NCBI GenBank assembly: GCA_017421685.1
Contig: JAFOHW010000042.1
Coordinates: 1 to 15,907, forward strand
Direction: 5' to 3'
DNA from: Candidatus Saccharimonadota bacterium
GTDB lineage: Bacteria > Patescibacteriota > Saccharimonadia > Saccharimonadales > Saccharimonadaceae
Length of the DNA: 15,907 nt
Below, in pieces: positions 1,653 through 3,728 of this stretch. A model generated the notes under the pieces. That model had not been told where the DNA came from. It did no database searches and worked only from the letters and a program-made list of their open reading frames with translations. The position numbers were made by a program, and so were the translations under genes. Every line of letters begins with the position of its first letter. Positions within the stretch are counted from its first letter, which is position 1.

Positions 1653-1670
1653 GATATAATTATTATACAA
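1652..1670. promoter_or_regulatory. Symmetric divergent promoter for murC and tsaE-tsaB
   Basis: A TATAAT lies at 1655-1660 on the + strand (TGATATAAT, extended -10 form), followed by 9 nt and the ATG at 1670. A second TATAAT lies on the - strand at 1667-1662, also followed by 9 nt and the murC ATG at 1652. The two boxes are separated by one base pair, and the arrangement is nearly symmetric around 1661. Transcription would start about 7 nt after each box, leaving only 2-3 nt of leader, and no Shine-Dalgarno fits. The two polymerases could not bind at the same time, so the genes should compete for transcription. Confidence 0.7.
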
Positions 1671-2560
1671 TGATTATTAATTCTGAACAAGAAATGCTAA
1701 CTTTTGGCGAAGAGTTTGCTAGTAACCTCGAAACGAAAAAGTCTGTCGTTATTGAACTTATCGGCGATGTCGGAACTGGGAAAACAACTTTTACTCGCGG
1801 CCTCGCTAAAGGTCTCGATGTAAAAGAGAGCGTTACGAGTCCTAGTTTTACTATCTCAAAATCCTACGCTCTAAAAAACGGCGGAAATTTAATCCATTAC
1901 GACTTTTATCGCCTTAGAGACCCTGGACTCATGGCCGACGACCTCGAAGAAAACCTAAAAAACCCGAAAAACATCATCGTTATCGAGTGGGGAGAATCAA
2001 TCTCCTCTCTTCTCCCAAAATCCCATATAATTATTAATATCTCTAAAAATGATAATAATTCTCGTAATATTAAAATAACCGACAATCGTAGCAATACCTT
2101 TTCGGGGGCTTCCGCGACCAACGGGGAGCGGGGTGAACGACTGAGCCCCGTAACGACCGCCCCTTGGGACGCGGACGACCTCCGGTCGACGGGCGCGAAG
2201 GAGTGTCCCCCGAAAGGTATTGCTGGATTGTCGCTGTATTTAGATACCTCAACCCCAGAAACAATCCTAAAATTAAACGATAAAGAATATAAATACGTTT
2301 TTGCCAACGACCTAGCCGAAAAACTATTAAAGTTTATTCACGATAAATTGAAAGAGAATCATAAAGACTGGAAAGATATTGCCGAAATAACTTTCATGTC
2401 CGGGCCTGGCTCTTTTACTGGTCTTCGAATTGGCGCAACTATCGTAAATACTCTAGCTTCAGAATTGAATATTCCTCTCTACGACCACAAAGGGAATCAG
2501 AAAAAAATCATCGTCCCCGAATATGGACGAAACGCTAATATTTCAAAACCAAAGAAATAA
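1670..2560 (+). CDS. tsaE: TsaE-TsaB fusion protein (tRNA t6A biosynthesis), with a reduced TsaB half
   Basis: One continuous frame of 296 residues. Residues 1 to about 136 are TsaE: P-loop GDVGTGKTT at 32-40, then VTSPSF, HYDFYRLRDP and IEWGE. TsaE is the ATPase that supports the TsaB-TsaD complex making N6-threonylcarbamoyladenosine on ANN-decoding tRNAs. Residues about 137-188 come from a GC-rich palindromic insert and are low-complexity, rich in Gly, Ala and Arg. Residues about 190-296 resemble the first lobe of TsaB (LYLDTSTPET, GPGSFTGLRIG). The second lobe of a normal TsaB of about 220-230 residues is missing. A TTG at 2228 with AAAGG ten nt upstream could start the TsaB part separately. 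The stop codon at 2558-2560 abuts the stop of the convergent gene with no spacer. Confidence 0.82.
   Translation: MIINSEQEMLTFGEEFASNLETKKSVVIELIGDVGTGKTTFTRGLAKGLDVKESVTSPSFTISKSYALKNGGNLIHYDFYRLRDPGLMADDLEENLKNPKNIIVIEWGESISSLLPKSHIIINISKNDNNSRNIKITDNRSNTFSGASATNGERGERLSPVTTAPWDADDLRSTGAKECPPKGIAGLSLYLDTSTPETILKLNDKEYKYVFANDLAEKLLKFIHDKLKENHKDWKDIAEITFMSGPGSFTGLRIGATIVNTLASELNIPLYDHKGNQKKIIVPEYGRNANISKPKK
2080..2233. repeat. GC-rich palindromic element inside the tsaE-tsaB frame
   Basis: Two arms, 2080-2108 and 2207-2233, are near-perfect inverted copies: CGACAATC, AGCAATACCTTT and CGGGGG match in order, with a GT/C difference and one extra T in the left arm. They flank about 98 nt of GC-rich sequence. 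Bases 2101-2160 contain 42 G+C of 60, far above the surrounding genes. Smaller stems can form inside: TCCGCG 2111-2116 with CGCGGA 2170-2175; a CGGGG/CCCCG hairpin near 2129-2150; and CGACC-TCC-GGTCG near 2177-2189. The element has no stop in the gene's frame, so it is translated as the inter-domain linker. It resembles REP/MITE-like or Rickettsia-palindromic-element-like insertions, but no family could be matched. A structured RNA is an alternative. Confidence 0.75.
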
Positions 2561-3699: not shown

Positions 3700-3728
3700 A
3701 GTATAAGTTCTTTCCTGTTAAAAATCAA
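3700..3728 (-). promoter_or_regulatory. Sigma70-type promoter of the fibro-slime gene
   Basis: On the minus strand TTGATT (3728-3723) is followed by 17 nt and TATACT (3705-3700), close to TTGACA-17-TATAAT. The start codon at 3685 lies 14 nt beyond the -10 box, giving a leader of about 7-8 nt, with AAGGA immediately before the ATG. Confidence 0.6.

Follow-up and report, generated by a model that had tools for sequence, protein, structure and literature searches.

The best-known coding palindromic elements are those of Rickettsia. The Rickettsia palindromic elements (RPEs) are palindromes of 105-146 bp that occur in intergenic regions and also in frame within genes for conserved proteins, and for one RPE host protein both translation and activity have been shown (PMC2229807). 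MITEs of bacteria (ERIC, Correia, YPAL, and others) are short, non-autonomous, dispersed, and of inverted-repeat structure (PMC2229807; PMC10969869). REP/BIME sequences with TnpA-REP (RAYT) are also dispersed palindromic DNA of prokaryotes, with REPs given as 20-40 bp (PMC3733652). In organelles, the coding palindromes of Nematomorpha mitochondria are described as inverted repeats within translated genes (PMC6649704), and mitochondrial double-hairpin elements are short hairpin repeats.

The window analyzed here is a stretch of 15,907 nucleotides from a Candidatus Saccharimonadota bacterium (contig JAFOHW010000042.1), and it carries a palindrome in the linker of a fused tsaE-tsaB gene (Table 1). 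This palindrome is one copy of an unnamed, dispersed DNA-hairpin family common in its genus. No earlier description of palindromic or miniature inverted-repeat elements in Saccharibacteria or the Candidate Phyla Radiation was found among the matches listed in the open-licence literature. The element is likely a mobile DNA palindrome of ~108-130 bp, apparently non-autonomous, that probably fused tsaE to tsaB and whose arms and core may be reshaped by template switching. Its inserts have a median length of 119 nt (interquartile range 115-127, n = 122), which fits the size of RPEs, as do segments of 108 and 128 bp shared by two recent copy pairs. Its placement is RPE-like as well: among 165 arm-bearing copies, 127 fall inside ORFs that stay open along the element, 18 at ORF ends, and 20 elsewhere. 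In the Saccharibacteria element, no two copies have the same arms and the changes are paired, the core seems able to flip, and two genes have been joined. The original prediction had proposed a likeness in principle to RPEs, and this comparison supports it; the element seems to work like an RPE, a likeness by description that does not file it as a member. Like MITEs, the element is short, apparently non-autonomous, dispersed, and built on inverted repeats. Location within translated genes is shared with the Nematomorpha palindromes, and the short hairpin form is comparable to that of the double-hairpin elements.

Within the window, the fused ORF is free of stops along its whole length, element included, and its product combines TsaE (residues 4-134) with a TsaD/TsaB-type N-terminal domain (residues 214-271) by Pfam. 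GC content is 64% at 2101-2250 versus 31% at both 1951-2100 and 2251-2400. The inverted repeat, the folds, the ORF list, and the Pfam domains together bear out the original prediction of a GC-rich palindrome that keeps the frame open and forms the linker between two domains. That prediction also described near-perfect inverted repeats of ~26 bp at the borders. The inverted repeat is real, but it does not amount to two 26-bp arms around a plain spacer; comparison with other copies gives an outer stem, P1, enclosing hairpins P2 and P3, with a nested 33-nt insert. The main arms of P1 (2090-2107/2207-2224) are 18 nt long and 89% complementary in an inverted-repeat search, and folding lengthens them outward by CGACAATC/GATTGTCG (2080-2087/2226-2233). 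Hairpin P2 is unpaired in covariance models R1 and R2, and single-sequence folding of the window copy pairs the same stretch otherwise. Tandem GA/GA mismatches are seen by eye in the helices of many copies.

Table 1. Features of the fused gene and its palindromic element (window coordinates).
Feature	Position	Strand	Basis
Fused tsaE-tsaB ORF, 296 aa, element as linker	1670..2560	+	ORF list; Pfam domains
Palindromic element copy, element orientation equal to gene orientation, outer limits approximate	2080..2233	+	Inverted repeat; folds; covariance model
P1 outer stem, left arm	2080..2107	+	Inverted repeat; fold
P1 outer stem, right arm	2207..2233	+	Inverted repeat; fold
Hairpin P2 (CCGCGACCAACGGGGAGCGG), GA/GA mismatch	2112..2131	+	By-eye comparison with other copies
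Hairpin P3 (GACTGAGCCCCGTAACGAC ... GGGCGCGAAGGAG), broken here by nested insert	2138..2203	+	Conserved helix 6, 103 copies
Nested 33-nt in-frame insert in P3, missing in the C15 copy	2158..2190	+	Comparison with C15:2100-2194

Folding of the window palindrome is far better than expected from shuffled sequence. RNA parameters give z-scores of -6.1 and -4.9 on the two strands and DNA parameters -6.0 and -6.1, with none of 200 shuffles as good in any case. Models R1 and R2 match the element at E 6.6e-15 and 1.5e-15, respectively. Rfam 15 has no match in the window at gathering score, and below that threshold (E up to 10, over 1980-2330) the best match, at E 6.8, is of no use. A BLAST search places an exact 26-bp match to window positions 2155-2180 in another copy of the same genome (C21:10903-10928). 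That copy (L241, G000:C21:10843-10977) has an inner arm resembling that of the window copy (AATACCTTTTTCG) around a different inside, and it has 26 bp in common with the nested insert, as if inner modules swap between elements.

The family is common in the genus. BLASTN of the window copy against its own genome finds partial copies, and covariance modeling with R2, which was built from 103 copies, finds 15 copies there at E <= 0.01, with stems that covary across copies; 11 of the 15 are contained in ORFs that read across the element. Across the genus, R1 matches 57 of 60 sampled genomes at E <= 0.01, with 599 matches in all and up to 29 per genome. An order-wide search at 1e-4, run with stricter filters, matches 9 of 148 genomes, six of the same genus and three of one sister genus, or 2 of 104 genera. 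A degenerate 21-mer occurs in at least 117 stretches among 84,980 species genomes; the 80 listed are all from Candidatus Saccharibacteria, many of them from ruminant gut, and one named record among the matches listed is UBA2866. Metagenome assemblies make up many of the named records, and E-values from the covariance models are approximate. The alignments used throughout are those of the covariance models; a MAFFT alignment (A1) put the outer arms out of register. The window copy has no match among 50,697 phage records, nor the C15 copy among 72,556 plasmid records. A viral contig with the 21-nt pattern (L193) was considered as a carrier and rejected: R2 matches those 21 nt only, the GC-rich surroundings are without the element, and the pattern is taken as chance.

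Pairing between the arms persists while their sequences change. From 198 distinct elements, arms were located in 165 by a 6-bp paired seed, and the 33 without such a seed were dropped. All 165 left arms have distinct 15-mers, and own arms pair far better than swapped ones (0.617 versus a permutation maximum of 0.309; positions 7-16, 500 permutations). In the alignment of 103 copies, whose fitting to the model favors pairing, 94.5% of cells are paired, covariation is 0.708 versus 0.157 when shuffled, helix 6 is 98.4% paired, and changes on both sides occur in some copy at 33 of 35 predicted pairs. The four Watson-Crick types are about equally frequent in outer pairs, with AU 25, CG 25, GC 21, and UA 21 at columns 10/180, where G-U or U-G occurs twice. 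Arms found outside the model are Watson-Crick at 3708 of 3970 pairs (93%), a figure that the choice of arms by paired seed again favors. Differences between copies were sorted by type: in 133 copy pairs with cores at least 80% identical, 562 arm differences are both-sided and still paired, 85 are one-sided, and 27 are other, and where cores are 95-100% identical the counts are 68, 10, and 1. These counts leave out 58 of the 165 copies, which have no 10-bp ungapped stem, as well as pairs with more than half of the left arm different, with a core-length difference above 3 nt, or with cores less than 0.8 identical.

Strong covariation invites the reading that the element is a structured RNA in the mRNA, such as a cis-regulator, a processing site, or a small ribozyme, with stems kept by compensatory selection. 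The conserved hairpin core with its tandem GA/GA mismatches fits that reading, as do intergenic copies, a few of them shortly upstream of TATAAT-like boxes, and a weak excess of G-T over A-C in element orientation (94 versus 62, p 0.013) is a slight hint that one strand matters. Selection on RNA is expected to leave more G-U intermediates than these stems contain: G-U makes up ~2-3% of pairs (94 of 3970 in seeded arms, 83 of 2960 in the model alignment). Counted in gene orientation, G-T does not exceed A-C (59 versus 66). Because G-U pairs are few and this excess is missing, we read the pairing as maintained in the DNA and not in the mRNA. The genic copies, moreover, comprise 88 in the orientation of the gene and 39 antisense to it, so that the mRNA often carries the antisense form, and no Rfam family is matched. 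A structured RNA, which the original prediction had offered as an alternative, is disfavored by the two orientations and the scarcity of G-U and is improbable. One lesson is that covariation in an alignment need not imply a functional RNA.

Empty orthologues, together with the copies elsewhere in the genome and genus, uphold the original prediction of an in-frame palindromic insertion. For 80 of the 127 genic copies a qualifying empty orthologue was available, with mean identities of 0.71/0.67 in the flanks and 0.16/0.165 in the arms; the remaining 47 were left out of this comparison. Because the arms are so much less alike than the flanks, arms and core are mainly inserted DNA; a likeness of one arm to the host gene in some copies means that insert limits vary. 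The first empty-site comparisons had suggested a rule in which the host supplies one arm and the second arm is an inverted copy of it. The 80-copy test and two recent copy pairs carrying their own arms reject this rule, with some copies still compatible with it. In DNA-level comparisons of empty sites, the best flank pairs are mostly ~80-90% identical and some subjects are occupied, too diverged to fix insertion points or to show target duplications.

Recent movement is indicated by near-identical segments between unrelated flanks. Two copies in the window's own genome, one in mnmA (C69) and one in a cysteine-desulfurase gene (C56), have 108 bp in common with 3 mismatches and unrelated flanks, and two copies ~670 bp apart on one contig of genome G016, also taken as recent, are 99.2% identical over 128 bp. 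The arms moved along with the core in both pairs. At the ends of the two pairs no direct repeat is seen by eye, and duplications of 1-2 bp would be compatible. At the mnmA locus (L236, ~1501-1635), the flanks outside the 108-bp common segment pair again (GGGATG ... CATCCC); either the target was palindromic or the stem has grown outward, perhaps. The two near-identical copies of G016 (L025, G016:C14) seem by eye to share one long ORF that also contains TsaD-like sequence.

The search for a mover covered Y1 transposases and reverse transcriptases only. The Y1 transposase family PF01797 is present in 2 of the 60 genomes of the genus but absent from the window's own genome (93% complete), while the same search is positive in 5 of 14 control genomes; a Y1 transposase is rejected as mover on its presence in 2 of 60 genomes only. 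Reverse transcriptases match in 38 of 60 genus genomes, mostly in frames of ~350-480 aa. None was found in the window's own genome, and since that genome has 15 copies, a reverse transcriptase seems not to be required. We take the genus reverse transcriptases as possible diversity-generating retroelements. The Saccharibacteria element differs from MITEs in having no conserved terminal inverted repeats, no target duplication by eye, and no cognate transposase among the two enzyme types searched. Its length of ~108-130 bp and the near absence of Y1 transposases set it apart from REP/RAYT systems. Nematomorpha palindromes are organellar, and both of their arms encode conserved residues, whereas the Saccharibacteria arms are mostly inserted DNA.

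Insertion within genes reaches conserved functions. An NCBIfam scan took in 10 of the 11 own-genome host ORFs, the eleventh being tsaE-tsaB itself. leuS, gatA, valS, mnmA, ychF, and a gyrase/topoisomerase subunit A gene score above cut-off, a cysteine desulfurase (E 8.7e-85) falls below it, a TatD-type nuclease falls just below, and a femX-like gene and a methyltransferase gene give weak matches below it. Of six possible frames with respect to the core, the inserts of 122 genic copies use five, five of the 127 having been left out of this count because they have no recognizable P3 motif; the unused frame is open in 3 of 159 copies. Insert peptides have more Ser, Arg, and Pro and less Trp, Tyr, Met, Ile, and Lys than the rest of their host proteins. 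The element, found in both orientations within genes and between them, would survive in genes by occupying permissive places and by having a GC-rich core in which several frames are often stop-free, and it would be translated as a Ser/Arg/Pro-rich linker.

Two other accounts of the genic copies are set against these data. The peptide might never be made, if the insert were an intron removed by self-splicing or by enzymes, or if it were bypassed in translation; insertions in leuS, valS, gatA, and other conserved genes would suit such an account. An open frame runs through the insert in 127 of 165 copies, however, the nearly always closed frame goes unused, and the 39 antisense genic copies are at odds with strand-specific splicing, which would not allow both orientations; an intron or bypassed segment is thus very improbable. 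A Ser/Arg/Pro-rich composition would also suit an ordinary low-complexity linker of a clade-conserved fusion, with a palindrome arising by chance or through an assembly artefact. Copies in unrelated genes and separate assemblies, core DNA that stays alike though read in five frames, and a fold far below shuffles leave that account with almost no probability. What was found is neither a uniform conserved linker without other copies nor a product of misassembly.

RPEs are also found within RNA genes, those for tmRNA and RNase P among them. Among the 15 own-genome loci scanned with Rfam, one element adjoins a tRNA gene and none overlaps a match. Several intergenic copies (L046, L047, L174 near 829, L181 near 4274, L029, L033) end, by eye, a few bases before a TATAAT-like box. 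Such copies may abut or supply promoters, or they may insulate from upstream transcription.

The same sites are occupied across species, in some cases with the core apparently reversed. Same-site groups number 29 and take in 91 of the 127 genic copies, for example ileS-like (8), argS-like (6), and valS (4); most of these gene names are presumptive assignments from remembered motifs, with valS and leuS confirmed in the window's own genome by NCBIfam. Orientations were compared for arms of at least 12 nt and between loci. Arms read in gene orientation exceed the 99th percentile of different-site pairs (0.684) in 5 of 33 opposite-orientation same-site pairs, spread over three sites (recX-like, methyltransferase, and argS-like), and in 15 of 90 same-orientation same-site pairs; the best arm identity among the 7480 different-site pairs is 0.861, which exceeds that of the flipped pairs. 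At the three sites the arms are 0.75-0.83 identical and the 90-nt flanks 0.57-0.79. In the best pair per site the cores are 0.86, 0.96, and 0.87 identical when flipped versus 0.54, 0.45, and 0.46 unflipped. From these alignments, the core appears to have been inverted in place between conserved arms at three sites.

Template switching offers one explanation for both observations. In yeast, template switching between inverted repeats is reported to homogenize arms and invert spacers (PMC8604942), and template switching has been proposed to create and maintain hairpins (PMC8794818). From the likeness of the paired arm changes and apparent core flips to the yeast report, we infer that template switching while the hairpin is being replicated may keep the arms complementary and sometimes invert the core in place. 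A broader version, tentative at present, would have a self-maintaining palindrome without a transposase of its own, both spread and kept by replication through the hairpin, with template switching rewriting its arms and flipping its core; it would act as a generator of in-frame linkers in a streamlined lineage and would have fused tsaE to tsaB, perhaps repeatedly.

Alternatively, the same mobile palindrome might owe its paired arms to selection for a DNA hairpin or cruciform, for instance as a protein-binding site, and its flips to a recombinase or to independent insertions in opposite orientation. The strong conservation of the core across five reading frames, most evident in helix 6, is consistent with such selection, and the recurrence of sites across many species implies that they are re-used or old. 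Paired changes prevail, however, even between copies whose cores are 95-100% identical, and the clearest flipped cases keep their arms in gene orientation, which independent insertions do not predict. This reading as a whole is the less likely one, though a serious alternative. Paired arm changes and apparent core flips at orthologous sites would open template switching to direct test as a force in long-term evolution.

The tsaE-tsaB fusion shows what such an insertion may do to neighboring genes. TsaE or TsaB matches are present in 59 of 60 genus genomes, and one continuous tsaE-tsaB ORF occurs in 5 of 60 (G000, G080, G006, G079, and G074). Model R2 finds the element in the linker of G000 (E 2.5e-16), G006 (1e-15), and G079 (4.5e-11), and the G080 linker matches weakly (0.0027 with R1; 1.2e-5 with R2, filters off). 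The fifth fusion, G074, has a long linker in which neither R1 nor R2 recognizes an element. A candidate sixth fusion, G012, was suggested by equal open-frame lengths and proved to be two separate ORFs. Unfused loci are common in relatives. In 25 of them (L199-L223), 14 have 14-17 nt between the compared domain limits, three have 59-127 nt, five have tsaE and tsaB on opposite strands, and three are unmeasurable; in G001, tsaE and tsaB have 4 nt in common. The only element match in these 25 loci (L218) lies near the 5' end of tsaE, on the opposite strand from tsaB.

Because four of the five fusions carry the element in the linker, its insertion probably made the fusion. Insertion at the tsaE/tsaB junction, where the genes overlap or nearly do so in many relatives, would have removed the stop between them and joined their frames. 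The suggestion that the insertion created the fusion thus holds up against relatives, most of which keep tsaE and tsaB separate, with the qualification from G074 that the element may not be the sole route. In domain trees of 27 of 30 loci (three without a motif were left out), fused rows are not monophyletic. At least two changes are required by well-supported branches in both the TsaB tree and the concatenated tree, where parsimony counts five; the TsaE tree requires one, with a parsimony count of three and fused rows more clustered than in 495 of 500 shuffles. The trees suggest, but do not prove, repeated fusion of tsaE and tsaB.

More broadly, copies occur inside aminoacyl-tRNA synthetase, gyrase-type, and tRNA-modification genes, and the 599 matches in 60 genomes of very small bacteria offer abundant natural material for studying how proteins tolerate inserts and how gene fusions begin.

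Two further features of the tsaE-tsaB loci were observed. TsaB is ~110 residues long in the loci viewed (window 1670-2560 and L194-L211), roughly half of the usual TsaB length, and the Pfam match of the window protein to PF00814 covers profile positions 28-85 of 264 only. The N-terminal loop of tsaE (L195, L244, L245, L209, L249) carries, in several species, other low-complexity in-frame insertions, for example RQDPPSN repeats in L245; against the palindrome models these give weak matches or none, and they perhaps belong to a second coding-repeat family.
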